A DNA stretch of 64,000 bases from Acidobacteriota bacterium (GTDB lineage Bacteria > Acidobacteriota > Terriglobia > Terriglobales > SCQP01), in assembly GCA_027459505.1 (NCBI GenBank), contig DAIDIE010000016.1, forward strand, positions 1 to 64,000, read 5' to 3'. Below the pieces are notes generated by a model. The model was not told the DNA's origin. It ran no database searches and saw only the letters and a program-made list of their open reading frames with translations. The translations under genes were made by a program, and so were the position numbers. Positions 6,006 through 47,870 of the stretch are shown in pieces (the stretch's first letter is position 1; every line of letters starts with the position of its first letter).

Positions 6006-8480
6006 TCATTTGTTGGTCCGCAGGTATTGCGCGGCTCGTGCGAAGGCGGGTTTAAAGAACCCAATCCAGTAATTTTGGGCGTCATTCTCGATGATGGGTA
6101 GCGACTGGCGATCCTTTAAGCGCGCCAGCGAGAAGGCTGCCACGACCTGAGTCTCGCCCAGCGGCCCATTGAGGGCGGAGCGCAGCAGCTGCAGGGTTTG
6201 TGGATCGCTGCTGCCCAGAGCCCCCAACTGTTGCAGCGCCACTTCCCGCGCCGGCTGAGGACTGGTAGCGGTGGCCCATTGGTGAAGGATTGGCAGGGCG
6301 GCTGGCGTACCCAGTTCGCTCACCCACTTCAGGGCCGCGCTTTCGACCTGCCAGCGAAAGCTGTGCATGGCGAGCGCCTGCTGAATGTAGACGCTGAGGT
6401 GGGGACGATCCATAGTGGCGAGTGCGTTCAGCGCGGCCACACGTACACTGGCGACGGGATCGGAGTGAAAGGCAGTGGTCACCAGCGCCGTATCCGGTGG
6501 GTTGGCGGGACCGTGCCCCAAGGCGCGGAGGGCAGCCGCGCGCAATTCGGGGTTCTGGTTAGACACGAGGCGGCGGGCGAGGGTAAGGGCCGCATTCAAG
6601 TCCAGTCCCGAGAGCCGGCCCAAGGCGAACTGGCGGACGGCCGGACTGGGGTCATGCTCGACGCGATCTTTCAACAAGCGGGGAAGTTGTTTGGAATGCC
6701 GGGGGCCGGCGAGGAGAAGCAACTGGTTCAAGGCGCGCCGGCGGTCGAGTCCATATGGCGCCAGGCGGCTCTCGCGCAGCCACTCGCCATAGGTTTTGGT
6801 CCAGTGCAGGTCAACCATCCAGGTGTGTTGGGGATCGACCTGCAGCAGGCGGGGTTTGGATGGCAGGGGAAGTGTGAATGTGGATGTGCCCTTTGGCAAG
6901 GCGAAGCTATGCCGCACGACGTGGGAGCCGCTCCATGCGGCGACTTCCACATGTCCCCAATACGAAAGGCGCTGCTGCTGCAGGCGAATCACCGCGTTTT
7001 TGTGAGCAGCATCCCAACTCCAACTCACATTCCATTGCGGGTGGCCGGGGCTGTAGAGCCACTGTTTGAAAAATGCTTGCAGATTCGTGCCGCTGGCCCG
7101 CTCCATGGCGCGCTCAAATTCGGCGGTGTTGACCGGGCGGTACTGATAATGCGACAGATAAGCGTGAATGCCGCGCCAAAACACCGGCGGCCCGAGTTCA
7201 TACTCCAGGCGGCGCAACGCCCAGGCGCCCTTCACGTAGGTGACCGAGCGGAACATATTCCAGGGGTCGCCGTAATGAGGATCCACAACGGGAAAGAGGT
7301 CGACCGCGCCGGAGCGGATAATCTGATCGGCTTCGCGCTGGCGGTCGAAGATGGCGCGATCGGCGCCATAGGCGTGGCGATCCCAAAGGAACATGGAGAA
7401 CTGCGCGAAGCCTTCGTTCAGCCAGACCTGACTCCAGTCCTGACAGGTAACCAGGTCGCCAAACCAGTGATGGGCGAGCTCATGGGAGGCGGTGATGTCG
7501 TGTTTGTGTTGCCGCGCCAGGAGATTAGCGAGATCGGGGTTCTCGGGGTAATCGCCGGGAAACTCGGTGGCGGTAACGTTTTCCAGCGCGTCGAAGAAGC
7601 CGGGATTATTAACCTGATCGTACTTGGCCCAGGGAAAGGGGATACCGGTGAGCTTGCTGAAGAACCGGATCATTTCCGGGGTGCGGCCGTCATAAGTACG
7701 CGCCATGGCGGGGGTGAAATCGACCGGCACATCGTATTCGAGCGGGAGCAGGCGACCGGCGAGGCGGGTGGTATCGTCGATGCGTTTCCAGCTTCCAATA
7801 TAGAAGGTCAGCAAATAAGAAGAGATGGGCTGCGCCTGGACCCAGTGGGTTTCCAGCGAACCGTCCGGCAGAGTGCGCTGCCCGACTAGGGCGCCATTGG
7901 CGATTCCCCACATACCGGGAGGAGACACCAAGGTGAAGTCGGCGCTCAGCTTGTCATTGGGGTGGTCATCCGCCGGCAACCAATGGTGCAGCTCATCAGG
8001 TTCGCCGGAGGTCCATAAGGCGGTGGCGCGCGATGGCTGCTGCAATTCTCCTGGGAAGAACACCAGGCCGGCGGCCGGTTGCAGGTCATAGTTGAGCAGC
8101 AACGTAATCTGTTGCCCCGGGGCGAGAGGATGGGGCAACTTCACCGTCAGTGCGCTGTGGCCCAGCGAAAACTTTGCGGCAAGGAGGCTGGCGCCGCCGG
8201 GCTGCTGGAGATTGACGGTGGTGATTGGGGGGCCATCGCAATCCAGAACGATACGGCGCAGAGTGCGGGCTTGGGCGCTGACGGTGAGCTGTTCCGAAAT
8301 CGCCACCCGTTGGTGAACGAAATCCGGCTGCACGCGCACGGAAATGTGACGCATGCGATAGCCGTTGTTTGAAGGCAGGCCGGACTGCGCGAGCGCCGCG
8401 GGAACGGAAGATGTCAGCGCCAACGCGGCCGGGACAGCAAGACGGCGGAGGATACGATTGGGGCAGCGAAACAGCGGCAT
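6006..8480 (-). CDS. Secreted M1 family metallo-aminopeptidase with C-terminal HEAT-like repeats
   Basis: An 824-residue zinc peptidase with a signal peptide ending near AALAQSG, so it acts outside the cytoplasm. The zinc site HELAHHW followed 18 residues later by NEGFA is the M1 HExxH-x18-E motif; the upstream ALENVTATEF replaces the usual GAMEN exopeptidase loop, so true aminopeptidase activity is likely but not certain. The N-terminal beta saddle precedes it. The last 250 residues contain repeated helical hairpins such as PAVRQFALGRL and PELRAAALRALG, read as HEAT repeats, in place of the usual ERAP1-like domain. It is monocistronic by spacing. Confidence 0.92.
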   Translation of the reverse strand: MPLFRCPNRILRRLAVPAALALTSSVPAALAQSGLPSNNGYRMRHISVRVQPDFVHQRVAISEQLTVSAQARTLRRIVLDCDGPPITTVNLQQPGGASLLAAKFSLGHSALTVKLPHPLAPGQQITLLLNYDLQPAAGLVFFPGELQQPSRATALWTSGEPDELHHWLPADDHPNDKLSADFTLVSPPGMWGIANGALVGQRTLPDGSLETHWVQAQPISSYLLTFYIGSWKRIDDTTRLAGRLLPLEYDVPVDFTPAMARTYDGRTPEMIRFFSKLTGIPFPWAKYDQVNNPGFFDALENVTATEFPGDYPENPDLANLLARQHKHDITASHELAHHWFGDLVTCQDWSQVWLNEGFAQFSMFLWDRHAYGADRAIFDRQREADQIIRSGAVDLFPVVDPHYGDPWNMFRSVTYVKGAWALRRLEYELGPPVFWRGIHAYLSHYQYRPVNTAEFERAMERASGTNLQAFFKQWLYSPGHPQWNVSWSWDAAHKNAVIRLQQQRLSYWGHVEVAAWSGSHVVRHSFALPKGTSTFTLPLPSKPRLLQVDPQHTWMVDLHWTKTYGEWLRESRLAPYGLDRRRALNQLLLLAGPRHSKQLPRLLKDRVEHDPSPAVRQFALGRLSGLDLNAALTLARRLVSNQNPELRAAALRALGHGPANPPDTALVTTAFHSDPVASVRVAALNALATMDRPHLSVYIQQALAMHSFRWQVESAALKWVSELGTPAALPILHQWATATSPQPAREVALQQLGALGSSDPQTLQLLRSALNGPLGETQVVAAFSLARLKDRQSLPIIENDAQNYWIGFFKPAFARAAQYLRTNK

Positions 8481-11270: not shown

Positions 11271-12635
11271 TCAGGCCGCATCGAGTTGATGATCGCGAAT
11301 TTTGTAGAGTAGCGCCTTGTAGCTGATGTTGAGCCGCCGTGCCGCCTCCTTGCGGCTCCATGCGGTTTCCTCGAGGGCTTGCACGATAGCGGCCTTTTCC
11401 GCTTCATCTTTGAGGTTGCGCACCATGGCTTTCAGACCGCCCGGCTGCTGAGAGGCGGGCAGGGCGCCTTCCGCGAGCCGCAGTTCCAATTTGCGCCGCA
11501 ATTCCTGCAGCGCGGCGTCATCGTCGGCCAAGACGAGGTAGCGCTTGACGAAATTTTCCAGCTCCCGAACGTTGCCGGGCCAGTCGCAGCGCAGGGCCGC
11601 CTCCATCAGGGCGGGGGAGAAATCCAGCGGCTCACGATTGAATTGTGCCGAGAGGCTGTGCATGAAGTGGCGCATCAGCGCCGGGATCTCCTCGCGGCGC
11701 TCGCGCAGGGGAGGCAGTTGAATGGTGAAGGCGTTGAGGCGGTAATAGAGGTCCTCGCGCAGTTTTTTTTCGGCGATGGCCTTCGGGATGTCAATATTCG
11801 TGGCGGCCACGATGCGAACATCGACCGAGCGTGTGGTCTTGCCGCCCAGCCGGGAGAACTCATGATCCTGCAAAACCTGCAGCAACTTGGCCTGTAAAAC
11901 CGGGGGCATTTCCCCGATTTCGTCGAGGAAGATCGTGCCCTTATCGCACTGCTCAAACTTGCCCTGTTTTTGACGGCTGGCGCCGGTAAAGGCCCCGGCT
12001 TCGTAGCCGAACAATTCGCTTTCCAATAGTTCGCTGGGAATGGCGGCGCAATTGACCTTGAGGAAGGTGCGCGTGGCGCGCGGGGAACGCCGATGCAGGA
12101 GGCGGGCAATCACCTCTTTGCCGGTGCCACTCTCGCCAAGCAGCAACACGGGAACGTTGATGGCGGCAACCTGTTCGACCAGGGCGCGGACTTTCTGCAT
12201 GGCGGGGCTGGCGGAGACGAAGGAGTAATCGTCATCGACCACTTCCGCTTCGGCCTCGATCCGCGGAGGGGACTCGAGGTGAGGCGCGAGCGCGGCTTCC
12301 AGTTCCGAGGGTTGCAGCGGTTTGGTGAGGTAATCGCGCGCACCCAGGCGCATGGCGTGAACGACCTTGTTGGTTTCGTTCAGGCAGGAGAGCATGAGCA
12401 CCTTTTGTCCGGGAAAGCGCTGGCGGATTTCGGCCAGGGTCTGCAGGCCATCCATGTCCGGCATGACCACGTCCAGCAAAAGCAAATCAGGGCGGGTACC
12501 GCGCTCCAGTTGCTGCAGGGCGGAGCGCCCGCTGTCGGCGGTTTCCACACCGAAGTTTTCGCTTTCGAGCAGGGTGCGCAAATAGCTGCGCATGCTGGGC
12601 TCGTCATCGACGACCATTACCGAAGCTCGGCTCAT
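11271..12635 (-). CDS. NtrC-type sigma-54-dependent response regulator
   Basis: A 454-residue three-domain regulator. The receiver domain (1-120) has the acidic pair in VVDDEPS, the phospho-acceptor aspartate in LLLLDVVMPDMDG (near 54) and the lysine in YLTKPL. The AAA+ domain has Walker A GESGTGKE, the sigma-54 contact loop GAFTGA, Walker B GTIFLDEIGEM and the WPGNVREL motif. A Fis-type helix-turn-helix (SRKEAARRLNISYKALLYKI) ends the protein. It lies 185 bp downstream of a histidine kinase gene on the same strand, its likely partner. Its target promoters may include the four TGGC-N8-TGCA sites in this window (inference). Confidence 0.95.
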   Translation of the reverse strand: MSRASVMVVDDEPSMRSYLRTLLESENFGVETADSGRSALQQLERGTRPDLLLLDVVMPDMDGLQTLAEIRQRFPGQKVLMLSCLNETNKVVHAMRLGARDYLTKPLQPSELEAALAPHLESPPRIEAEAEVVDDDYSFVSASPAMQKVRALVEQVAAINVPVLLLGESGTGKEVIARLLHRRSPRATRTFLKVNCAAIPSELLESELFGYEAGAFTGASRQKQGKFEQCDKGTIFLDEIGEMPPVLQAKLLQVLQDHEFSRLGGKTTRSVDVRIVAATNIDIPKAIAEKKLREDLYYRLNAFTIQLPPLRERREEIPALMRHFMHSLSAQFNREPLDFSPALMEAALRCDWPGNVRELENFVKRYLVLADDDAALQELRRKLELRLAEGALPASQQPGGLKAMVRNLKDEAEKAAIVQALEETAWSRKEAARRLNISYKALLYKIRDHQLDAA

Positions 12636-12820: not shown

Positions 12821-13672
12821 TCATTTCACGGCATTTGTTTGCAGCGGCAAGAGAAAGCAGAAACGGCTGCCGGCCTGAGACTCGCTCTCGACCCAAATCT
12901 TGCCCCCATGGGCTTGCACAATACGGCGGGCAATGGCCAAGCCCAAGCCAAAGCCCTCGACTTCACTGGAGGCGGAATCGGCACGAAAGAAGTCTTCGAA
13001 GATCTCCTGCTGAAACTCGGCGGCGATGCCGCGACCGGTATCAGAGACGCTGACCCGCACGGCGTTGGGATGATGATCGCGGTCAGCGAGCCGCTCCCAC
13101 TGATAGGGTTCGACGCCTATCCAGACGGAGCCGCCCTGCGGTGTCCATTTACAGGCATTGTCGAGCAGGTTGGAGAGCACCTGCTGGATACGGAAGGGGT
13201 CGAAATAGAAGCGGGGCAGTGGCGGTCCGTCGAGAAGATAAAGGGCAATGCCCTTCTCTTCCAGGCGTGGGAGCCACTGGCGATAGACCTGCTGCAGGGA
13301 GTCAGCGAGGTCGGAGAAGGCCAGTTGCAGGGTGAACTGACCTGACTGCGCGGCGCCAAACTGCAAAAAATCCTCAATCAGGCGGCGCATGCGCACGCCC
13401 GCGCTTTGCATTTCCAGCAGGATGCCTTGCTGGCGCTCGGTCAGGGCGCCGAATTTCCCGGTGAGTAACAGGTCGGTGTAGCCCGTCATGATGGTGGTGG
13501 GAGTCTTGAGCTCGTGGGCGGCGGAGGCCAGGGCGTGACAGGCGGTCTGATGAGTTTTTTCGAGACGGGAATAGCGGCTCTGCAATTCCAGCAGGTCATT
13601 GGACCCGTCTGCGGAGCGGCGTGGCGTGAGCGTCACGAGCCCGCGAAAGGGATGTTTGGCAGGTGCTTTCAC
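12821..13672 (-). CDS. Soluble histidine kinase, likely partner of the adjacent NtrC-type regulator
   Basis: A 283-residue kinase without membrane segments or a recognisable sensor domain. A short coiled region precedes the HisKA phosphoacceptor ASAAHELKTPTTI (histidine near 53), and a HATPase_c domain follows with NLLDNACKWTP, SDTGRGIA and GFGLGLAIARRI. With only about 45 residues before the H-box, it probably receives its signal through a partner protein. It stands upstream of the sigma-54 response regulator and divergent from the PilZ gene, which places it in control of the EPS region. PEP-CTERM loci in other bacteria carry a PrsK/PrsR pair; this kinase is shorter and lacks the PrsK membrane part. 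Confidence 0.9.
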   Translation of the reverse strand: MKAPAKHPFRGLVTLTPRRSADGSNDLLELQSRYSRLEKTHQTACHALASAAHELKTPTTIMTGYTDLLLTGKFGALTERQQGILLEMQSAGVRMRRLIEDFLQFGAAQSGQFTLQLAFSDLADSLQQVYRQWLPRLEEKGIALYLLDGPPLPRFYFDPFRIQQVLSNLLDNACKWTPQGGSVWIGVEPYQWERLADRDHHPNAVRVSVSDTGRGIAAEFQQEIFEDFFRADSASSEVEGFGLGLAIARRIVQAHGGKIWVESESQAGSRFCFLLPLQTNAVK

Positions 13673-13838
13673 TGTCTGTCCAATCGACTCCGTGGGAAAC
13701 CCGAAGTGACCGCCTGGGGCGGCACATGGGGGCTGATTGTGACTGCCTCGAAGTCGTTAGGATGCCGTCCGTCTGGGTCGCGGATGTACTTAGCCGCAAA
13801 GTTTTGCACTGTGCGGCGGGGGATGTGAGGGGAACGAG

Positions 13839-13848
13839 AATGCGCATT
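13839..13848. promoter_or_regulatory. Candidate activator site: 10-bp palindrome with TGCGCA core
   Basis: AATGCGCATT is a perfect palindrome 84 bp upstream of the sigma-54 promoter before the PilZ gene, a normal distance for an enhancer-type activator site. The same core recurs upstream of the exosortase and PEP-CTERM promoters. Confidence 0.5.
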
Positions 13849-13931: not shown

Positions 13932-13947
13932 TGGCCGCCGAGGTGCA
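13932..13947 (+). promoter_or_regulatory. Sigma-54 promoter (-24/-12) of the PilZ gene
   Basis: TGGCCGCCGAGGTGCA has the -24 GG and -12 GC with exactly 10 bp between, plus the flanking TGGC and TGCA. Transcription would start near 13958, leaving a 22-nt leader containing the AGGAGGG ribosome site. Confidence 0.75.
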
Positions 13948-13979: not shown

Positions 13980-14306
13980 TTGGCCTGCATGGAAAGTTCT
14001 ACTGAGCGCCGCAAGTGGGAACGCCTGCCGTTGGGCGTACCCATGTTTGTCCGCCCGGCCTCCAACGATCCCAATGCCAGCCCCCGTTTCGCCACCACGG
14101 TCAACATTAGCGCGGGCGGCATTTTGCTGGCCTCCCGCGATAACTTTCACGGCGTGGAGAAACTTTCGCTGGAAATTCCTAGCGCGCCGCTGCTGGAGTC
14201 GGCGGGCTGGCGCGCGGTGCGCAAAATTCAAGGGCAAATCGTGCGTACCGAGCCCTGGGAGCACGGCTTCTTGTACGCTCTGCGCTTCGCCGAGCCCCTC
14301 CTCTAG
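13980..14306 (+). CDS. Single-domain PilZ protein, probable c-di-GMP receptor
   Basis: A 108-residue protein made of one PilZ domain. The c-di-GMP signature is present in both parts: the RxxxR motif in RRKWERLPLG (residues 10-14) and the NxSxxG motif in VNISAGGILL. Such proteins bind the second messenger in the cytoplasm and act on partners in motility or polysaccharide export. I keep the TTG start at 13980 because AGGAGGG at 13968-13974 is at ideal spacing from it, while the ATG at 13989 would be too far. It is preceded by a sigma-54 promoter and leads into the EPS region, so c-di-GMP control of polymer production is plausible. Confidence 0.88.
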   Translation: MACMESSTERRKWERLPLGVPMFVRPASNDPNASPRFATTVNISAGGILLASRDNFHGVEKLSLEIPSAPLLESAGWRAVRKIQGQIVRTEPWEHGFLYALRFAEPLL

Positions 14307-15014
14307 AACTGGCGTGTCGAACTCGGCCATTGCGCGCTGTGGCTGGCTGGAATGATCCCTGAGCGGCCGCTCCTAACCTGAAGGGGCGCAGTGCCGGCCC
14401 CGGCCCAGTGAGAATGCGTGACAGCGCGGCGTACGCGCAGCTTTCGGGTTTTGAAATCAAGGGCCGTTTCGCCGAGGCCGGACCGCGGCCAGTGCCTGAA
14501 TGATTTACAGGCTTTTAGAGGGCGGAGCTGCCGCAGGGGCGCACAGGGTCGTCTTCTGAGCCGGGCTGGCGTTGCTTGCTGGTGCTCGCTGGCCCGTTCT
14601 CCCGTGAGGCCGTGAAGGCAGCAGTGATGGACTCCTCTCCCGCGCGAGCCACCCCAGGAAGCCAATCTGCGGCTTCGCGGTGACGATTGACGCCTCGGAG
14701 CTGGGGGCAGTCATTGCGGAGATCCCGCGGCGAGAGTCAGAGAGCGTTCACGAAGAGACACTTTTCCCGCCGCCCGCGTCCTAGAGGCCACAAACTCAGT
14801 GGGTTACGAGCGCAAAAGTTTTCACTCACGCGGAAATTGTTTTCCCCCTGGTTGGGGATTGCAGCGGGAGCGGCGGAAAAAGTGGCGGTGGCTTAGGGCC
14901 ATGAAAGCAAGCACTTAGGCGGAGTGGCGGGGCGGCTACCCCGTTTGGCCCCCGGTGTGCAACCACTCCTGGCGGCGCGCGCAGCCGTTGTTACGCCGCC
15001 CCGGGATTTCAAAC
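14307..15014. other. Long intergenic region upstream of the EPS regulator
   Basis: A 708-bp stretch between the PilZ gene and the next regulator. Only its right end has a clear signal, the sigma-54 promoter at 14946-14961. The short ORFs inside lack family similarity, ribosome sites or codon bias. It may be a long regulatory region or an RNA leader; I see no tRNA or known RNA. Confidence 0.5.
14946..14961 (+). promoter_or_regulatory. Sigma-54 promoter (-24/-12) of the REC-less activator and EPS export genes
   Basis: TGGCCCCCGGTGTGCA keeps TGGC and TGCA with exact -24/-12 spacing. The expected start near 14972 lies before the ATG at 15015 but after the alternative start at 14955, so it fixes the gene start. 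No exact TGCGCA is found in the 250 bp upstream. Confidence 0.75.
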
Positions 15015-16088
15015 ATGTCAAGCCTCGCGCCCAGCAATCTCGAACTGAGTGGCACCGTGCCGCCAGATCCAATCGTCTTCGGCAAATCCGAAGTGATGCA
15101 CGCTGTTCGCCAGAAGGTCGAGCGCGTCGCCGGGGCCAATATTCCGGTGCTCATACAAGGCGAAAGCGGTACGGGCAAAGACATCATGGCGCGGCTGGTG
15201 CATTTGCGTTCGCCGTGGGCGGGCGGCCCATTCGTCAAAGTGAACTGTCCGGCAATTCCCGGCTCTCTGCTGGAAAGTGAATTGTTCGGGTACGAGAAGG
15301 GTTCGTTTACCGGCGCTTATGGCTCCAAGCCCGGACGGGTTGAAATGGCGCATCGCGGCACTCTGTTTCTGGATGAGATAGGGGAACTCGATCTAGGACT
15401 GCAGGCGAAGCTACTGCAACTGCTGCAGGATGGACAGTTTTGCCGGATCGGAGCTCAGGAGGAGCGCAAGGTCGAGGTGCGGGTGGTCTGCGCCACCAAC
15501 CGCGACCTGGAACGGGAGATCGAGGGCGGCAACTTCCGGCAGGACTTGTTCTACCGCATCAATGTCGTTAACCTTCGCGTGCCGCCGCTGCGCGAGCGCC
15601 GGGAAGACGTAATCGACCTGGCCAACTACTTTCTCAGCTTCTATCAGGAAAAGTTCCATTGCCGGGTGCGGCCACTGTCGCCGCGCGCGCACCAGGCGTT
15701 GCGCCAATATGACTGGCCGGGGAACGTGCGCGAGCTGGAGAACCTGCTCAAGCGTTATGTGATCCTCGACTCAGAAGAGGCGATCACCAGCGAGCTGGTT
15801 AACCGCAATGAATACGCACTGGACACAGATATCGCCGCGGACGGCACGATGTCGCTGAAGAAAGTGACACGGCAGGCGGTGCAGCAACTGGAGCGGCAGA
15901 TCATCCTGAAGGTGCTCCAGGCCAACCATTGGAATCGCAAGCGCACGGCGCGGGCACTGAAGATCAGCTATCGCGCGCTGCTCTACAAGCTCAAAGAAGC
16001 CGGTGTCCCTTCGCGGCGCGTGTTGCAGATGCCGTCGCCCATCCGGCCAACAACGGAACCGGCGGTTCCCAGCGAACAGGAGAAGTGA
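15015..16088 (+). CDS. Sigma-54-dependent activator lacking a receiver domain
   Basis: A 357-residue bacterial enhancer-binding protein. It goes straight into the AAA+ domain: Walker A GESGTGKD, the sigma-54 loop as GSFTGA (Ser for the usual Ala), Walker B GTLFLDEIGEL, and YDWPGNVRELENLL. A Fis-type helix-turn-helix (NRKRTARALKISYRALLYKL) follows and is nearly the same as in the response regulator at 11271-12635. With no receiver or sensor domain, activity should be set by its amount or by a partner. It sits 1 bp before the polysaccharide export gene, so it is the first gene of the EPS export operon and may control itself. PEP-CTERM loci commonly carry a related regulator, PrsR. Confidence 0.93.
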   Translation: MSSLAPSNLELSGTVPPDPIVFGKSEVMHAVRQKVERVAGANIPVLIQGESGTGKDIMARLVHLRSPWAGGPFVKVNCPAIPGSLLESELFGYEKGSFTGAYGSKPGRVEMAHRGTLFLDEIGELDLGLQAKLLQLLQDGQFCRIGAQEERKVEVRVVCATNRDLEREIEGGNFRQDLFYRINVVNLRVPPLRERREDVIDLANYFLSFYQEKFHCRVRPLSPRAHQALRQYDWPGNVRELENLLKRYVILDSEEAITSELVNRNEYALDTDIAADGTMSLKKVTRQAVQQLERQIILKVLQANHWNRKRTARALKISYRALLYKLKEAGVPSRRVLQMPSPIRPTTEPAVPSEQEK

Positions 16089-22199: not shown

Positions 22200-22444
22200 T
22201 CGCCGTTTTCAGGCGCGCCAGGCCGGAGTGATGGCTTAAGGCAATGCAAGCCGCTGCACATAGTGGAGTTCACTTTTCTGCGTGTGGTGGCGCGGTGCGA
22301 AGCAAATGCGCTGCAAGCCCGCGCCAGTAAAGGTTTTAGGTGTGGGTGCAGAGTGGTATGGCACCTGCAGAAAGCTACACGCTGGGCATATGCCGCTGCT
22401 CGCGCCTCTCGGGAGCGGTCCACGCCCGCACGGTTGACGAACCC

Positions 22445-38622: not shown

Positions 38623-38809
38623 AGGCGGATTCCCTCGGGCAGTTCACGGTTAAATATTCAATTGCCACTCGACTGATTGCCGAAACTGATGCGCGTCAAA
38701 CCGTCGCTGTTGGCCATAAGACACGCCGCATGTTTTGGCTTTCCGCGGAATACCCCTTTTGCCTGCGGCCTCGACGAGAGGTGGGCGATGAGCGCGCATG
38801 TGCAGATTG

Positions 38810-38817
38810 TTGCGCAT
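38810..38817. promoter_or_regulatory. Candidate activator site upstream of the exosortase promoter
   Basis: TTGCGCAT contains the TGCGCA core and lies about 102 bp before the sigma-54 promoter, matching the PilZ and PEP-CTERM upstream regions. Confidence 0.4.
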
Positions 38818-38918: not shown

Positions 38919-38934
38919 TGGCAAGCGAAATGCA
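38919..38934 (+). promoter_or_regulatory. Sigma-54 promoter (-24/-12) of the exosortase operon
   Basis: TGGCAAGCGAAATGCA matches the consensus at ten of twelve informative positions (T1, G2, G3, C4, A5, G7 and TGCA). The start would be near 38945, which excludes the longer exosortase ORF start at 38866. Confidence 0.78.
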
Positions 38935-38982: not shown

Positions 38983-39891
38983 TTGTCGACCAGCTCTTAC
39001 CCCATTGAACCCACTGAAGTTCCCGCTCTGGTTCCGGTAAGTGAATGCTGGAGTGTTTCGCCCTGGTGGGTCAGCCTGCTCTCGGTACTCGCGCTGGCGC
39101 TTTATGCTCCGGTATTGGCCCATCTTGTGCACCAGTGGTATACCGAGCCAGATTTTTCCCATGGTTTTCTGGTGCCGGTGTTTAGCGGATTTCTGTTATG
39201 GAGAGAGCGCGCCCGGATCCGGCGGCAGCCGCTGCGCCCCAGCAGCGCTGGACTGGCGCTGCTGGTCCTGGGCGTCCTGATGCTCTTTGCCGGTACGTTG
39301 GGGGCGGAGTTGTTCATCAGCCGCACCTCGTTGCTGGTGGTCCTCACCGGGATGGTGCTTTACCTGGCCGGCCCGGCGGTGCTGCGCGCCGTACGTTTTC
39401 CGCTGGGCTACTTGTTGCTGATGATTCCGCTGCCCGCCATCATTTATAACCAGATCACGTTTCCGCTGCAGCTTCTGGCCTCACGGCTGGCCTCAGCGAG
39501 CCTGAACCTGGTGGGGATTCCGGTTCTTCGCGAGGGCAATCTGCTGGTGCTGCCCAACTACACACTGGAGGTGGTGGACGCCTGTAGTGGCATTCGATCA
39601 TTGCTCTCGCTGATCGCACTGGCGGTGGCCTACGCTTATCTCGCTGAACGGCGAAACTGGGCGCGCATTCTGCTGGTGCTACTGATGGTGCCGATTGCGG
39701 TGGTCAGCAATGGTGTGCGCATTTTCGGCACCGGAGTGTTGACGGATCTGCGTGGGCCTGGCGCCGCGGAGGGCTTTTTTCACGCTTTTTCCGGCTGGTT
39801 GATATTCATGACCGCCGTCATCCTCATGCTGCTGGCTCACCGGCTGATTGAACATATGGGTAAGTGGATGGAGGAGAGAGCACATGCCTGA
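38983..39891 (+). CDS. Exosortase (PEP-CTERM sorting enzyme)
   Basis: A 302-residue membrane protein with about eight helices. It cleaves the C-terminal PEP motif of secreted proteins and passes them on to the envelope. The three catalytic residues of the exosortase/archaeosortase fold are visible: Cys201 in VVDACSGIRSLL, Arg246 in SNGVRIF and His267 in GFFHAFSGW. The start was placed at TTG 38983 because GGAG is 8 bp upstream and the sigma-54 promoter lies between here and earlier starts. It overlaps EpsI by 8 bp and is followed by a PrsT-like protein, so one operon is likely. Confidence 0.94.
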   Translation: MSTSSYPIEPTEVPALVPVSECWSVSPWWVSLLSVLALALYAPVLAHLVHQWYTEPDFSHGFLVPVFSGFLLWRERARIRRQPLRPSSAGLALLVLGVLMLFAGTLGAELFISRTSLLVVLTGMVLYLAGPAVLRAVRFPLGYLLLMIPLPAIIYNQITFPLQLLASRLASASLNLVGIPVLREGNLLVLPNYTLEVVDACSGIRSLLSLIALAVAYAYLAERRNWARILLVLLMVPIAVVSNGVRIFGTGVLTDLRGPGAAEGFFHAFSGWLIFMTAVILMLLAHRLIEHMGKWMEERAHA

Positions 39892-40552: not shown

Positions 40553-40573
40553 GCGTGTAGATTGCGAGGATTT

Positions 40574-42853
40574 ATGAACCGCACAGCGAAAACGTTTTGG
40601 CTTGCGCTGCTGGCCGCCACGGCCACCGTCCTGCTGGCCGGCTGCAGCACCAACCCTGAGGTGGGCAAGGTGCGTTACCTGCACAGCGGTGAGCGCTACA
40701 TGAAGCTGGGCAAAGCGCGCGAGGCCAGCATTCAGTTCCGCAAGGCGTTACAGTTGGACGCGCATTACGCCGACGCGTACTACCAGCTGGGCAAGGCCTA
40801 TGCCGCTATGCAGCAATGGAATGACGCTTTGGCATCGCTGCAGGAGGCGGTGCAACTGGCGCCCCAAAACAGCGCCGCGCGGCTGGACCTGGGCCGCATC
40901 TATCTGGCGGCCCACCAATATGCCAAAGCCTCTGAGCAGGCGGAGGCCGTGCTCAAGCAGCAGCCGCGCAACGCGGCCGCCTTCCAGATGGAGGGAGCGG
41001 CATTGGTGGCGCAGGGGGAGAATAGCCAGGCGATCGCCGATTTCCGCCGCGCTGCGCAGATTCAGAACGACTCGACGAGCTATACCAATCTGGCGCTGTT
41101 GGAAATTACGTCCCACGACTTAACTGCCGGAGAGGCCGACCTGAAACGGGCTGTCAGCCTGAATCCGCATGACGCGAACGCCCAGGCGGACCTGGCCAAC
41201 TTCTACCGGCTGCAAAACAACAATGCACAGGCCGTTCAGCAATTGCAAACGGCGGTGAATCAGGATCCGGAGGCTAACCGCCTGTACCTGGCCTGGGCCG
41301 ATCTGCTGTACCAACAGCAAAACGCGGGCGCCGCGGAACAGGTCTTAACGCAACTGCGCAGCCGCAAACCGAACTCCGTCAAAACCGCGTTGGCACTCGG
41401 CGATTTTTATCAGCACCACGGCAATTCCGGGCAGGCGTACAACGAATACCAGCGCGCCCTACACCTGAAGAGCGACGATCTCCATGCCGAACAGCGAATG
41501 ATGGACTGGTACATCAGCGCAGGGCAGATTGCGAACGCGCAGAATATGGACGGACGCATTCTGAAACAAAAGCCCGATGACATAAACGCCCGCGTTGATC
41601 AGGCCCGCATACTGCTGAGCCAGGGAAAGCAGGATGAGGCCATCTCGCAGTTGCAGCAGTTGGTGAGCGATGATCCCCAGTCGGCGGCGGCGCACTACTA
41701 TCTTGGGCTGGCGCTGTGGCATAAGGGCGACCTGGATCAGGCCAACGGTGAGTTGCAGCGGGCGCTGGCGAACTCCTCGCGTACCCTTCCGGTGCTGCGG
41801 AGCCTGGCGCAACTGCACGCACAGATGGGAGACCAGAGTTCCGCACTGGATTACGCCAATCGCGCCGTGAAGGCGGATGCCGCCAATCCCGACACGCACA
41901 TGCTGCTGGCGCGGATCGAATTGCAGGCCGGACGGCCCGACGCCGCGGCTCAGGAACTGGCCACCGCGGAGAAACTGGCGCCCGGCAATGCGCAACTGCA
42001 CGTGGAGATGGCGCAAGCCTATGCCGCCATGCGGCAGTTCCCGAAAGCGGAACAGGAGTGCCGCGCGGCGCTGGCGGGGGACGCGGGCAACGCCGATGCG
42101 CTCGGGCTGTTGGCGTCGCTGCTCGAACAGCAGAAGCAACTTGCGCAGGCGGAACAGCTCCTGCAGCAAGCCGTGGCGGCGGCGCCGGCGAGTCCAGTGC
42201 CGCATTTGCTGATGGGACAGTTAGCCGAATTGCAGAAACAATATCCCCAGGCGCAGGCGCAGTATCAGCAGGCGTTGCAAATGAATCCCAACAACGTTCA
42301 AGCGCTATTGCATCTGGGGCAGTTGTACCGGGAAGAGAACAACGACGCAATGGCGCTGCAGGAGTTCCAGCGTGCCAATCAGGTTCGGCCGCGGTACGCG
42401 CCGTTGCTCACTTTGATCGGCAACATTTATCTGGATCGCAATGACCTCAACTCGGCCAGCGGCTATTACCAGCAGGCGCTCAGCGCCGATCCCGACTTTG
42501 CCATTGCGGCCAGCAACCTGGCCTGGGTCTACGGCACGGAACACACTCACCTGACCGAGGCGCTCACGCTGGCGGAAAAAGCCGAGCGCCTGATGCCCAA
42601 CCTCGACTCCATCACCGATACCCTGGGCTGGATTCACTACCAGCAGGGCAGCTATAGCACGGCGGTTCCGCTGTTCCAAAAGTGCGTGGATAAAGCTCCG
42701 CAGTTTCCCAAATACCGTTATCATCTCGGCCTGGCGCTGCTGAAGAGCGGTGATGCCCAGCAAGGGAAGAAGGAATTGCAGGCGGCGCTGAAGCTGAAAC
42801 TCACAGGCGCTGATGCCCAGAACGCCCGGCAGTTGCTGGCACAGGCCGACTAG
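40574..42853 (+). CDS. PrsT-like TPR-repeat lipoprotein of the exosortase system
   Basis: A 759-residue lipoprotein; signal peptide LALLAATATVLLAGC ends at the lipobox cysteine (about residue 24). The mature part is about twenty TPR-like 34-residue repeats such as ADAYYQLGKAYAAMQQWNDALASLQEAVQLAP. Family members near exosortases are called PrsT and are thought to scaffold EPS or PEP-CTERM export in the periplasm. I prefer ATG 40574 over TTG 40562. It ends the exosortase-epsI operon. Confidence 0.9.
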   Translation: MNRTAKTFWLALLAATATVLLAGCSTNPEVGKVRYLHSGERYMKLGKAREASIQFRKALQLDAHYADAYYQLGKAYAAMQQWNDALASLQEAVQLAPQNSAARLDLGRIYLAAHQYAKASEQAEAVLKQQPRNAAAFQMEGAALVAQGENSQAIADFRRAAQIQNDSTSYTNLALLEITSHDLTAGEADLKRAVSLNPHDANAQADLANFYRLQNNNAQAVQQLQTAVNQDPEANRLYLAWADLLYQQQNAGAAEQVLTQLRSRKPNSVKTALALGDFYQHHGNSGQAYNEYQRALHLKSDDLHAEQRMMDWYISAGQIANAQNMDGRILKQKPDDINARVDQARILLSQGKQDEAISQLQQLVSDDPQSAAAHYYLGLALWHKGDLDQANGELQRALANSSRTLPVLRSLAQLHAQMGDQSSALDYANRAVKADAANPDTHMLLARIELQAGRPDAAAQELATAEKLAPGNAQLHVEMAQAYAAMRQFPKAEQECRAALAGDAGNADALGLLASLLEQQKQLAQAEQLLQQAVAAAPASPVPHLLMGQLAELQKQYPQAQAQYQQALQMNPNNVQALLHLGQLYREENNDAMALQEFQRANQVRPRYAPLLTLIGNIYLDRNDLNSASGYYQQALSADPDFAIAASNLAWVYGTEHTHLTEALTLAEKAERLMPNLDSITDTLGWIHYQQGSYSTAVPLFQKCVDKAPQFPKYRYHLGLALLKSGDAQQGKKELQAALKLKLTGADAQNARQLLAQAD

Positions 42854-43351
42854 GGGTGGGCCCGGTGGAATCGTCATTCACGCCGAAGCCGGGCAGGGCC
42901 TCTGCGTCGCTGGAGGGCTCCCCTCTCCTGGACATTTCTGTGGGCGCTTCAGACAATGTTGGCCGGTTGCCGGGATGACCCGGGCGCCGGCCACATTTGT
43001 TTGGAGCGAAGGCGTTCAGGCATCACCCCGGCATGGTCCATTTGCGATGCGAGCGTTCCCGCCTTGATCTCCCCCGCGACGCCGCTTCCCGAGTTTCCCT
43101 TCGTGTGCAAAACCTTGCACATGCCGCAACGGTTTTTCCTCGCCGGCTGAGTTCCCAAGCGCCAGCAACTCTCGTTGTGTCAAGGATTTACCTCTCCTGT
43201 GCAGGCTTCGGCATAGGGCGTGCTTTCTTGCCTGCGCTGCCGCCGGCCTTGAGTCAGGGCGGTGCAGGCCTTGCCGCATTCCCGCGGGCACGGGCACTGG
43301 CCGCCGGAAGCAACCGGCTGATATGCGGGATTCACATCGAGAGGAAAATAT
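42854..43351. other. Intergenic region before the SBBP protein gene
   Basis: A 498-bp gap. It contains a 7-bp inverted repeat at 43104-43121 and a weak sigma-54-like sequence at 43260-43275 (CGGTGCAGGCCTTGCC). The small ORFs inside have no support. Confidence 0.5.
43104..43121. promoter_or_regulatory. Perfect 7-bp inverted repeat, possible operator
   Basis: TGTGCAA and TTGCACA flank AACC. It lies about 230 bp before the SBBP start. It resembles a dimeric regulator site; the regulator is not known. Confidence 0.3.
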
Positions 43352-46030
43352 ATGAATCAGGACCGGAACATACAGGGGTCATCCGGCAAAAAGTTGAGCC
43401 GCGCGGCTCTCTGTGTCTTGCTGGGCTCGGGGCTGTGCGCCGTGCCGGGCGCGCAAGCGGCCGCTGCCCCACCACGTCATCAGGCACCTCAGCGCATGCT
43501 GTTGCGGAAATACGGCAAGCTGCCACTCAGCTTTGAGCCGAATGTCGGCCAGGCTGATCCGCACGTGCATTTTTTGGCGCGGGGCGCTGGCTATGGCATT
43601 TTCCTGCGGACCCGGGAGGCGGATCTGCGGCTGGATAAATCGTTGCTGCGGCTCCGTGTCGCCGGCGCCAATCCCAAGGCGGCGATGAGCGCACGGCAGC
43701 CCCTCGCTTCGCGCAGCAATTACCTCGTCGGCGCGCACAGCCAGTGGCGGACCAACGTGGCAAACTTTGCCGAGGTTATGGAGCGCAATATCTACCGGAA
43801 TATCGATTTGCGCTACTACGGCAACCAGCGCCGTCTGGAGTACGACTTCCTGGTGCATCCCGGCGCAGCGGTCAACACCATTGCCATGCGGGTGGACGGC
43901 GCTTCGCGCCTTCGGGTATTGCCCAACGGAAACGTGGCGGTGTATGCCGGCAATCGCACGCTGTCGCTGCACGCTCCGCTCGTCTACCAGCGCATTCACG
44001 GGCGGCTGCAGCAGGTGAGCGCCCGCTATGAGTTGGCCAACAATGAACTGCATTTCAAGGTTGGGGCCTTTGATCACGCTCATACGCTGGTGATCGATCC
44101 ATCGGTTGTCTATTCCACCTTCCTCGGTGGTAGCGGCAATGACCAAGCGGCCGGCATCGCAGTTGACGCCAGCGGCAACGCCTACGTAGTGGGTCAGACG
44201 GCCTCGACAAACTTTCCGGTCTCTGGAGCCCTGCAAGGCTCCCTGGCGGGCAACGTCGACGCGTTTGTAACGAAATTGAATGCCTCTGGCACCGGCGTCG
44301 TCTATTCCACCTACCTGGGAGGCAGCAGCATTGACCAGGCGATTGGGGTAGCGGTGGACGGCAGTGGCGATGCCTATGTTACGGGCTTGACCACCTCTTC
44401 GGATTTCCCCGTCACATCCGGGGCCATCAGCGGCAGCTACAGTGGTAACGCATCGGCCTTCATCACCGAGTTGAATCCCAGCGGGCAGGGGCCGGTCTTT
44501 TCGACCTACCTGGGCGGCAACGGCGCCACCGTCGGAAATGCGATTACGGTGGACGGCAGCGGCAATGTCTATGTCGCCGGCAACACCGGCGCAACGAACT
44601 TCCCGACTACCTCGGGCGTGGTTCAAAGCGCGCTGGTGGGTACCAGCGCGGGCTTCGTGATCAGTCTCAAGCCCAGTGGAGCGGGGGTGAACTTTGCCAC
44701 CGTGATTGGCGGGAGCGGTTCCAACAACATCGCTACCGGCATTGCGGTGGATGGCAGCGGCAACATTTATGTTGCCGGCGAAACCAACTCCACGGATATG
44801 CATACGACCAACGGCAGCAGCAATGCGGGTGGGAACGATGCCTATGTGGCAAAGCTGAATGCCGGCGCTACCTCTTACGGGTACCTGGAGCTGTTGGGTG
44901 GCAGCAATGACGATGGCGCCAACGGAATCGCTATTGACGGTTCAGGCAACGCCTATGTCACCGGTTTTACCCTGTCCTCTAATTTTCCCACCAAGGCCGC
45001 TTTGCAGGGTTCCCTGGCGGGTCCGGGCAATGCCTTTATCGCCAAGTTGGACGGCAGCGGGAACGTTGTTTACAGCACTTTCCTCGGCGGCGGCGGTCAG
45101 GATACCGGAGCGGCGATTGCCGTAGATGGATCCGGTGACGCCTTTGTTGCCGGCATCACTACGTCGAGCAATTTCCCCACCGCCAGTCCGACCAAGGGGA
45201 CGCTTTCGGGCAACACCGACGCCTTCCTTTCCGAGGTCAATCCCAGTGGTTCAGGCTTGGTCTTCTCCACCTATATTGGCGGCAGCAGCGGTGACGCAGG
45301 CACGGCTCTGGCACTGGATAGCGGCGGCAATGCCTACGTAGCGGGCTGGACCGGATCCTCCGACTTCCCCACGCAGAGCGCCTACCAGGGCTCGTTCCAG
45401 GGCGGCTCGCGCGATGCGTTTGTCATGAAGTTCTCCACTGGCGGCAGCTTGAGCGGTGGTGGAGGTGGCGGCGGCGGAACGCCGGCGGCGGACTTCTCAA
45501 TGAGTCTGGCCCCAGCAAGCGTCACCGTGGCCGCCGGCAAGTCGGCCAGCTATACGCTGACAATTACTCCCAGCAACGGCTTCAACAGCGGAGTGAACCT
45601 AACCTGCAGCGGCGCTCCCAAGGGCGCAACCTGCACTATCGCCAACGCAACAGTGACTCCCGATGGCACCAACGCCGCGAGCACCACGGTGACCATCACG
45701 ACGACCTCGCGCTCGGCATTGGCCCCGCTCAACGGGCCTGCTAATGGCACACCGGTTTTGCCCCTCACCTTGGGGTGGCTGGGATTGGCTGCCATGGTTG
45801 GCTTGGGGATCTACCTGCAAAAGCGCAGCCGCTTTGCCTGGGTTCCGGCCCTGGCGGCGGTTGGTTTCTGCGCCATTGTCATGACCGCGTGCGGGGGCAG
45901 CTCCAGCCCCAGTTCTGGTGGATCCAGCGGTAATCCCAATGGAACTCCCGCTGGGACCTATACCATAACGGTGAACGGCGCGAGCGGCAACACCACGCAT
46001 AGCGCTACCACCAGTATGGTCGTTCAGTAA
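43352..46030 (+). CDS. Secreted beta-propeller (SBBP-repeat) surface protein
   Basis: An 892-residue protein with a signal peptide (LCVLLGSGLCAVPGAQAAAAP). Residues 40-240 are the domain that often precedes SBBP repeats (LSFEPNVGQADPHVHFLARG). From about 250 to 700, repeats of roughly 55 residues of the type FLGGSGNDQAAGIAVDASGNAYVVG form a beta-propeller. The end has an Ig-like stretch (FSMSLAPASVTVAAGKSASYTL), a hydrophobic helix, and a second Ser/Gly-rich Ig-like tail including a Cys in TACGGSS. The C-terminal helix could anchor it. No PEP-CTERM motif is present. Its place just after exosortase genes suggests a surface role. Confidence 0.88.
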   Translation: MNQDRNIQGSSGKKLSRAALCVLLGSGLCAVPGAQAAAAPPRHQAPQRMLLRKYGKLPLSFEPNVGQADPHVHFLARGAGYGIFLRTREADLRLDKSLLRLRVAGANPKAAMSARQPLASRSNYLVGAHSQWRTNVANFAEVMERNIYRNIDLRYYGNQRRLEYDFLVHPGAAVNTIAMRVDGASRLRVLPNGNVAVYAGNRTLSLHAPLVYQRIHGRLQQVSARYELANNELHFKVGAFDHAHTLVIDPSVVYSTFLGGSGNDQAAGIAVDASGNAYVVGQTASTNFPVSGALQGSLAGNVDAFVTKLNASGTGVVYSTYLGGSSIDQAIGVAVDGSGDAYVTGLTTSSDFPVTSGAISGSYSGNASAFITELNPSGQGPVFSTYLGGNGATVGNAITVDGSGNVYVAGNTGATNFPTTSGVVQSALVGTSAGFVISLKPSGAGVNFATVIGGSGSNNIATGIAVDGSGNIYVAGETNSTDMHTTNGSSNAGGNDAYVAKLNAGATSYGYLELLGGSNDDGANGIAIDGSGNAYVTGFTLSSNFPTKAALQGSLAGPGNAFIAKLDGSGNVVYSTFLGGGGQDTGAAIAVDGSGDAFVAGITTSSNFPTASPTKGTLSGNTDAFLSEVNPSGSGLVFSTYIGGSSGDAGTALALDSGGNAYVAGWTGSSDFPTQSAYQGSFQGGSRDAFVMKFSTGGSLSGGGGGGGGTPAADFSMSLAPASVTVAAGKSASYTLTITPSNGFNSGVNLTCSGAPKGATCTIANATVTPDGTNAASTTVTITTTSRSALAPLNGPANGTPVLPLTLGWLGLAAMVGLGIYLQKRSRFAWVPALAAVGFCAIVMTACGGSSSPSSGGSSGNPNGTPAGTYTITVNGASGNTTHSATTSMVVQ

Positions 46031-46618: not shown

Positions 46619-46843
46619 CCGTTTGACTAGTGCCTTGTGGATGGAGAAATCTTCTGGCGGCGCAAACGCTTGCTCACAAAGGGCGCTGCTTTTCCCGCAG
46701 TGAGTGGCCATCGGTGCACGCGCAGAAAGCCATCCGACGCGTTGTCTTTGCCGGAGCAACAGCGGCGTCCGCGGTGGGGATGCAGGCCCCCCATACAGGG
46801 CTGGGAGCCGGACGGCTGGAGGCGCAAAGCCGGGGGCACGGCA

Positions 46844-46938
46844 TGCGCAGCGGTTTGCATGCGCAAACTACGGCGGGCGCGGCGTTATGCAAGCCGTTGC
46901 GCAGTTCAGTAGCTCAGGAATGCGCAAGATGCTGCGCA
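46844..46938. promoter_or_regulatory. Cluster of five TGCGCA sites: candidate enhancer for a sigma-54 activator
   Basis: TGCGCA occurs at 46844, 46860, 46898, 46921 and 46933. Most copies lie in AT-flanked forms such as ATGCGCAA and TTGCGCAG. The last site is about 92 bp upstream of the -24 element. A multi-site array at this distance is typical of enhancer-binding activators. Confidence 0.6.
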
Positions 46939-47029
46939 GTCGTTTGTGCCAGCGGGGCGGGGAGTGAGCTATAGATAGTAAAACATGCTGCACATAGATA
47001 GACCATTGCTGCGTACACGGCTTTCCTAG

Positions 47030-47045
47030 TGGCGGGTGGCATGCA
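47030..47045 (+). promoter_or_regulatory. Sigma-54 promoter (-24/-12) of the PEP-CTERM gene
   Basis: TGGCGGGTGGCATGCA keeps TGGC and TGCA with the correct 10-bp GG-GC spacing. The start near 47055 would give a 135-nt leader before the PEP-CTERM start codon. Confidence 0.75.
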
Positions 47046-47189
47046 ATAAAACCATTGAAAATAGCCATAAAAAACGAGCAACGCTGGGCGGGGCGGGGTG
47101 GCATCAGACGTGCTAGTGAGTTAGCAAAGCGAGATAGCGTCAGGCAAGGGCGCTGTCACGAAGAACCCCGATTGAGAGGAATTACAGAA

Positions 47190-47870
47190 ATGAAGAAACT
47201 GTCGCTGAGTTTAGTGCTTGCGTTGTTCGTGCTCGCACTGGGGGCCGTCAGCGCGAATGCGCAGACGCAGATCACCCTGGGCGCGTCGAGCCAGAATCTT
47301 GTGTTCTCCGGGCAGGGCGCTGGAACCACCGGTCTGAACCTGCAGCTCGGCAGCTGTGATGCCGCCGGCAACTGCATGCTTTCGGGCCAGGCCTTCGGCA
47401 CCGGTGCGCTGTCCTCTTCCGGCGATTACAGCATCAGCGCCGCGGCGGGCAACAGCATCACGCTGAGCAGCCTGGGCAGCGGTTTGTGGGCTGTCAACCA
47501 GAGCTCGCCGCTGTCTTTCAGCTACACCAGCAACGGCTCGACGCTGTTGACGGGCAACCTGGAACTGCTGACGTTATCGCAGTTGCCGGGCTCGCAGCTG
47601 GGCAACTTTAACTCCAACTTCGACGCCAACCTGGTGGTGACGGGCGGCCTGCTCTCCAGCGCCTTCAGCCCCAGCGGTGGCGCCCTGGACATCACCATTC
47701 TTTACGGCAGCAATGCCAATATCTCCACCCTGGTTGGCACCAGCAACTCGCTGACCGCGGTCATCTCCGCCGGTGAACTGCGGCCGGTTCCGGAGCCGGG
47801 CACGGTCCTCTTGTTCGGTTCTGGACTGACGATGATCGGTGGTTTGCTGCGCCGCCGTCTGGGCCTCTAA
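47190..47870 (+). CDS. PEP-CTERM sorting-domain surface protein
   Basis: A 226-residue secreted protein: signal peptide (LSLVLALFVLALGAVSANAQ), a Ser/Gly/Asn/Leu-rich body with few charged residues and likely beta structure, then the sorting tail VPEPGTVLLFGSGLTMIGG plus basic RRR at the very end. PEP is at 201-203. The exosortase gene 7 kb upstream supplies the processing enzyme. GAGAGGA precedes ATG 47190 by 9 bp. The gene has its own sigma-54 promoter and terminator. The body shows no enzyme domain, so a structural matrix protein is most likely. Confidence 0.94.
   Translation: MKKLSLSLVLALFVLALGAVSANAQTQITLGASSQNLVFSGQGAGTTGLNLQLGSCDAAGNCMLSGQAFGTGALSSSGDYSISAAAGNSITLSSLGSGLWAVNQSSPLSFSYTSNGSTLLTGNLELLTLSQLPGSQLGNFNSNFDANLVVTGGLLSSAFSPSGGALDITILYGSNANISTLVGTSNSLTAVISAGELRPVPEPGTVLLFGSGLTMIGGLLRRRLGL

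Follow-up and report, generated by a model that had tools for sequence, protein, structure and literature searches.

The cluster of TGCGCA hexamers at 46844-46938 is, judging from the sequence, very likely a multi-site enhancer (UAS) of the PEP-CTERM gene, composed of predicted NtrC-family activator sites and belonging to a single regulon. This array probably switches on the only PEP-CTERM gene detected in this soil bacterium together with its exosortase. The functional unit is an 18-bp imperfect palindrome, TGYGCAR-N4-YTGCRCA, whose ends are marked by TGCGCA; the hexamer, which the first-pass annotation had taken for the shared core, gives way to this dyad, GCAR-N4-YTGC with TGY/RCA ends. All coordinates refer to the window, that is the whole 64-kb stretch of DNA that was analysed (62% GC), which is an exosortase/exopolysaccharide island that also holds a TIGR03007 chain-length protein, a TIGR03015 ATPase and, after the exosortase, a DUF3485 and a TPR protein. 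Dyads were scored with a PWM obtained from relatives only, and sigma-54 boxes with a matrix built from relatives, by which 127,968 window positions were ranked. Around the PEP-CTERM gene the following features were found:

46659 to 46676, plus strand: UAS dyad E of the PEP-CTERM gene, GGCGCAAACGCTTGCTCA (third-highest PWM score in the window, 17.6)
46844 to 46861, minus strand: UAS dyad A, CATGCAAACCGCTGCGCA (minus-strand sequence; PWM 13.6, 13th in the window)
46886 to 46903, plus strand: UAS dyad B, TATGCAAGCCGTTGCGCA (PWM 16.5; one mismatch to the consensus), its right end being the third TGCGCA
46921 to 46938, plus strand: UAS dyad C, TGCGCAAGATGCTGCGCA (PWM 17.1; exact consensus), its ends being the fourth and fifth TGCGCA
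46933 to 46950, plus strand: weaker, overlapping dyad D, TGCGCAGTCGTTTGTGCC (PWM 14.3, ninth in the window)
47030 to 47045, plus strand: candidate sigma-54 box, TGGCGGGTGGCATGCA (rank 10)
47099 to 47114, plus strand: candidate sigma-54 box, TGGCATCAGACGTGCT (rank 3), 75 bp before the ATG
47190 to 47870, plus strand: PEP-CTERM protein gene, 226 aa (TIGR02595 over cutoff)

The five hexamers within 95 bp that had been reported were recovered at all five positions (46844, 46860, 46898, 46921 and 46933). Dyad A contains the first of them and reaches into the initial base pairs of the second, which is a half-site only. The PEP-CTERM gene is the only match to TIGR02595 over cutoff in the genome, and its closest relatives by contig search are in three acidobacterial MAGs. 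Concerning its promoter, the box at 47030 that had been proposed is a real candidate, which places dyad C at 109 bp and dyad D at 97 bp, a spacing also observed in the relatives, and leaves a long leader of 144 bp. The box at 47099 also fits and scores better (14.3 vs 13.3 bits). The sigma-54 boxes of PEP-CTERM genes in relatives are found 60-76 bp before the ATG, a leader length that 47099 matches. Counting against the enhancer, the array is at a typical distance from 47030, with its long leader, but far from 47099. Box 47099 fits at least as well as 47030, and with either one the array is the predicted enhancer.

A -24/-12 box of the form GG-N10-GC is present before each of five genes, the PEP-CTERM gene and four others, and a dyad lies upstream of each of these four as well:

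13793 to 13810, plus strand: UAS of the PilZ gene, GCCGCAAAGTTTTGCACT (PWM 15.0, eighth in the window)
13932 to 13947, plus strand: sigma-54 box of the PilZ gene, TGGCCGCCGAGGTGCA (rank 1)
13989 to 14306, plus strand: PilZ-domain protein gene (PF07238)
14809 to 14826, plus strand: UAS of the activator (EBP) gene, AGCGCAAAAGTTTTCACT (PWM 17.6)
14946 to 14961, plus strand: sigma-54 box of the EBP gene, TGGCCCCCGGTGTGCA (rank 5)
38799 to 38816, plus strand: UAS of the exosortase gene, TGTGCAGATTGTTGCGCA (PWM 18.1, second best in the window; exact consensus)
38919 to 38934, plus strand: sigma-54 box of the exosortase operon, TGGCAAGCGAAATGCA (rank 2)
38983 to 39891, plus strand: exosortase (EpsH/Xrt) gene (PF09721, 7.9e-80), its start, taken from the ORF, being approximate
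43104 to 43121, plus strand: UAS of the SBBP-repeat gene, TGTGCAAAACCTTGCACA (PWM 18.6, best in the window)
43209 to 43224, plus strand: weaker sigma-54 box of the SBBP gene, CGGCATAGGGCGTGCT (rank 53)
43352 to 46030, plus strand: gene of a secreted SBBP-repeat/DUF7948 protein (Pfam)

Since the exosortase operon and the SBBP, PilZ and EBP genes each carry a single site, they would form one regulon with the PEP-CTERM gene, and the exosortase would therefore be expressed together with the PEP-CTERM protein. The sites before the SBBP gene, before the activator gene and at 46659 had been overlooked in the first-pass annotation, which had instead placed single copies of the hexamer before two sister promoters. 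Its distances for the array, PilZ and exosortase are correct for the boxes at 47030, 13932 and 38919. At the exosortase promoter the copy holds up, the one in TTGCGCAT (38810-38817) being the right half of the 18-bp site, but at the PilZ promoter it does not, as AATGCGCATT (13839-13848) has a PWM score of -0.8 and the real site is at 13793-13810. A distance common to these promoters (84-102 bp) was rejected as well, since the true sites do not keep to it: the dyads lie 105 bp (SBBP), 120 bp (exosortase), 137 bp (EBP) and 139 bp (PilZ) before their boxes, and those of the PEP-CTERM array lie at 97-186 bp if the box is 47030 or at 166-255 bp if it is 47099. In addition, a weaker UAS, AATGCAAGCCGCTGCACA (22243-22260), is followed 111 bp further on by a poor sigma-54 box (22354) at a sugar-transferase gene, which is a possible further member of the regulon.

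GCAA-N4-TTGC dyads such as CCGCAAGCGATTGCAT were first noticed upstream of sigma-54 boxes in the relatives. The de novo set, drawn from eight genomes of relatives with the window sequence excluded, comprised 20 sigma-54 promoters that precede PEP-CTERM, exosortase and activator genes; promoters were chosen by gene identity and box, and the sites in some of them had already been noticed beforehand. When the stretches 53-200 bp upstream of these boxes were searched by unsupervised palindromic EM, the search converged on tgcGCAa.cg.tTGCgca with a log-likelihood of 83; Markov shuffles reached 38±4, and random 148-bp pieces of the same contigs 41±3 (maximum 48). The best sites of the relatives concentrate 91-104 bp before the -24 box. 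Given that the PEP-CTERM promoters of relatives carry one or two dyads each, some of them degenerate (G011, G001), the dyad is conserved but the five-site array is not, and the multi-site array is a feature of this genome. Counting against the regulon, the EM search found no convincing dyad at one or more promoters of three relatives, namely the exosortase promoter of G008, the second PEP-CTERM promoter of G010 and the PEP-CTERM promoter of G005.

In the window, the nine best sites of the relatives-only PWM are, by rank, those at 43104, 38799, 46659, 14809, 12575, 46921, 46886, 13793 and 46933. Eight of the nine fall 60-450 bp upstream of the five sigma-54 boxes, a territory of 3% of the window, with a binomial p of 6.5e-12 that is somewhat optimistic owing to overlapping sites; four of the eight belong to the PEP-CTERM gene and one each to the exosortase, SBBP-repeat, PilZ and activator genes. 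The genome-wide scan was performed by consensus matching and inspection of all places in the 4.06-Mb genome with at most one mismatch, 46 in total. Nearly all matches outside the window sit in long frames, and a sigma-54 box at the right distance was seen for three in the window and for a single one outside it, at C33:35511, which was discarded as it lies inside a KDO-8-P phosphatase-like coding region. The exact consensus occurs five times in 4.06 Mb, four of them within 34 kb of the exosortase island. One of these four, at 12575-12592, is located within the response regulator coding sequence described below, 43 bp from its start and with no promoter after it, which counts against the regulon; it is either a chance product of codon usage or an intragenic site. 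At strict thresholds UAS matches are found upstream vs downstream of boxes in a proportion of 7 vs 0. With loose thresholds the excess on the upstream side is modest, at 85 vs 54, and weight is therefore given only to the strict thresholds and to the de novo test.

The proteins that could read these sites are encoded in the same island:

11271 to 12635, minus strand: RR, an NtrC-type response regulator (model matches; members of its clade adjoin PEP-CTERM genes in relatives)
12821 to 13672, minus strand: histidine kinase adjoining RR
15015 to 16088, plus strand: EBP, a sigma-54 activator with AAA+ and Fis HTH and no receiver domain (Pfam; GAFTGA loop)

Both RR and EBP carry the AAA+ GAFTGA loop and a Fis HTH, and RpoN is encoded in the genome (PF04552, 1.3e-58, on C19). 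Among the relatives, the RpoN DNA-binding domain was not found in the draft genomes G004 and G011, despite excellent sigma-54 boxes at their PEP-CTERM promoters, perhaps through a gap in the drafts. Two clades of activators can be distinguished, both represented in several genomes of the family: RR-clade genes, with or without receiver, are directly upstream of PEP-CTERM genes in G001, G004, G006 and G011, and EBP-clade genes adjoin the exopolysaccharide operon. The near-identical helix-turn-helix regions put forward in the first-pass annotation are borne out by the two recognition helices, ISYKALLYKIR and ISYRALLYKLK, and across both clades the helix is nearly common (ISY[RK]ALL[YN]K). Its proposal of a binding array for the local Fis-type activators is very probably right.

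NtrC enhancer dyads are palindromes of about 17-18 bp with TGC...GCA ends, bound by Fis-type dimers and located about 80-200 bp before the sigma-54 box. The shape of the present dyad, read directly from the sequence, fits such a dimer of an NtrC-family activator, whose binding here is predicted. RR, in contrast to NtrC, scores below the cutoff of the NtrC equivalog (TIGR01818, 394.8 vs 558.6 bits), and the putative targets are surface proteins and not nitrogen genes. According to the proposed mechanism, RR and/or EBP would bind the 18-bp dyads and assemble on the array, presumably with cooperative binding across its sites, and the bound activators would loop to the sigma-54 RNA polymerase waiting at the -24/-12 box (47099 or 47030), the GAFTGA loop and ATP hydrolysis then opening the promoter. 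RR may be phosphorylated by the adjacent histidine kinase.

We favour the reading that both activators bind the same sites, which is putative. A serious rival, whose chances we consider to be somewhat below even, is that the sites are split by activator, RR recognising the TGYGCAR-N4-YTGCRCA type at the PEP-CTERM, exosortase and SBBP genes and EBP a GCAAA-N2-TTTT variant at the PilZ gene and its own gene. It is to be taken seriously because the PilZ and EBP sites have a distinct common core, AAAGTTTT, with a CACT end and a distance of 137-139 bp; furthermore, EBP orthologs of the sister family carry a variant of their own, detailed below, to which the EBP site is the best match in the window, and RR-clade genes adjoin PEP-CTERM genes. 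However, the two clades hardly differ in their recognition helices, one matrix scores both variants well, and the SBBP site scores well with both motifs.

Orthologs of EBP were found in 220 of the 397 genomes of the order. An EM search on 22 EBP promoters of the sister family gave TGTGAAAA-N2-TTTTCMCA, in most cases 152 bp before the -24 box, which is the same 18-bp frame with GAAA replacing GCAA and points to a conserved, predicted autoregulatory enhancer at these genes. The site before the EBP gene of the window, AGCGCAAAAGTTTTCACT, falls between the GCAA and GAAA motifs, and exosortase loci of the sister family show hybrid sites such as TGGGCAAATACTTTCCCT, which suggests that one ancestral enhancer has drifted. 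A wider proposal, which we regard as doubtful, is that an order-wide ancestral enhancer, TGNGMAA-N4-TTKCNCA, has its variants read by all exosortase-linked sigma-54 activators, the half-site position GAAA/GCAA having changed across the regulon between families. If true, this would be a natural, regulon-wide rewiring of a cis-code under an almost constant recognition helix of two paralogs, with the two hybrids standing in between. At five exosortase loci of the sister family (L165, L170, L176, L179 and L183) we also observed an activator-like gene without the GAFTGA loop but with the Fis domain kept (ISYKALLYKLKQIG), preceded by a TGGGAAA-N4-TTTCYCA dyad and a sigma-54 box; its product is possibly a non-activating DNA-binding relative.

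Other arrays of related hexamers exist in these genomes. In the present genome, TGCGCA triples within about 90 bp occur only at the PEP-CTERM gene and on contig C28, where the array is of a different kind: five TTGCGCAA palindromes (6066-6194) spaced 62, 19, 20 and 19 bp stand upstream of a sigma-70-like promoter, TTGACA-16-TACACT, followed by a secreted glycoside-hydrolase-like gene starting at 6290. Being a TTGCGCAA array that precedes such a promoter, the C28 array was rejected as a second target of the PEP-CTERM type. In G005, repeats of TTGCGCA/TTTGCGCA that recur every 21 bp exactly (contig C50, L223:2090, 2111 and 2132) precede a TonB-dependent-receptor-like gene, and both arrays look like a separate operator family. 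It is conceivable, at a low probability, that the hexamers of the window are likewise operators of an unrelated repressor or activator reading the short TTGCGCAA palindrome, given that such an operator family probably exists in these genomes and that the copies at 46860 and 46921 are each followed by A. Nonetheless, not one of the five copies in the window extends to a full TTGCGCAA, their spacing is irregular (16, 38, 23 and 12) vs mostly 19-21 bp in those arrays, the C28 array is linked to a sigma-70-like promoter, and the dyad accounts for the single-site promoters, which do not contain TTGCGCAA.

The background of the hexamer is higher than the one copy per 3 kb formerly estimated, as we counted 55 copies in 64 kb, about one per 1.2 kb and just above the 46±7 of dinucleotide shuffles. 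Single copies are weak evidence because the hexamer is this common, and with single copies at background and triples within 90 bp seen in many relatives, some plainly in repetitive or codon-like sequence, TGCGCA was rejected as the functional unit. Chance clustering of a hexamer common in a GC-rich genome, to which these same counts lend themselves, is nevertheless the least probable reading and is strongly disfavoured by the test of the motif from relatives, which recovers the same bases. Moreover, no hexamer of the window other than TGCGCA reaches five non-overlapping copies within 95 bp (P = 4.5e-5 for at least five among 55 uniformly placed copies).

For the PEP-CTERM genes of Proteobacteria, a motif of 17 nt that ends in TTTACA and lies about 63 bp before the sigma-54 box has been described, with PrsR as the proposed binder (Haft et al. 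2006, PMC1569441). The present arrangement resembles that PrsK/PrsR system by its -24/-12 box with an upstream motif for a predicted Fis-type NtrC-family regulator, by a motif that is sometimes repeated and by activators near exopolysaccharide and exosortase genes. It differs by its motif, here the 18-bp TGYGCAR-N4-YTGCRCA at 91-140 bp, by its occurrence in an acidobacterial order, theirs being reported in Proteobacteria only, and by having exosortase, PilZ and activator genes as additional targets. A PEP-CTERM gene with a sigma-54 box (Prs motif 2) is present. The island also encodes a kinase, at 12821-13672, and a TPR protein, at 40562-42853; the 25 top-scoring kinase models listed do not include PrsK. 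Neither TTTACA nor TGTAAA was found within 400 bp upstream of any of the six boxes, so the Haft motif was rejected at these promoters, and no protein of the genome exceeds the PrsR cutoff (TIGR02915, 502.6 bits; best 397.9), RR itself being rejected as PrsR with 350. The system would work like Prs but is not a member of it by the TTTACA and PrsR tests.

Two further systems can be compared. The RpoN-dependent pepA of Aquincola tertiaricarbonis, with a mapped TGGCAC/CTGCTT box (PMC9850573), is likewise a PEP-CTERM gene with a sigma-54 box and a predicted upstream enhancer, but it is Proteobacterial and its enhancer, of the previously predicted type, was not dissected there. In Desulfovibrio vulgaris, the response regulator DVUA0057 was found bound upstream of PEP-CTERM genes by DAP-chip (PMC3333781), in a different phylum and with no validated binding motif. 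Among the open-licence papers searched, none treating Acidobacteria, exosortase and PEP-CTERM together was found.

The array and its sister sites thus offer a candidate code, unlike the Proteobacterial one, by which Acidobacteria would control exosortase/PEP-CTERM surface proteins. The link between sigma-54 and PEP-CTERM genes, known from Proteobacteria with another motif and another regulator, would also exist in another phylum. Furthermore, the putative regulon is compact and can be named, comprising the exosortase and the one substrate detected for it, along with a PilZ protein, a large secreted protein and the activator itself, which hints at their co-expression.
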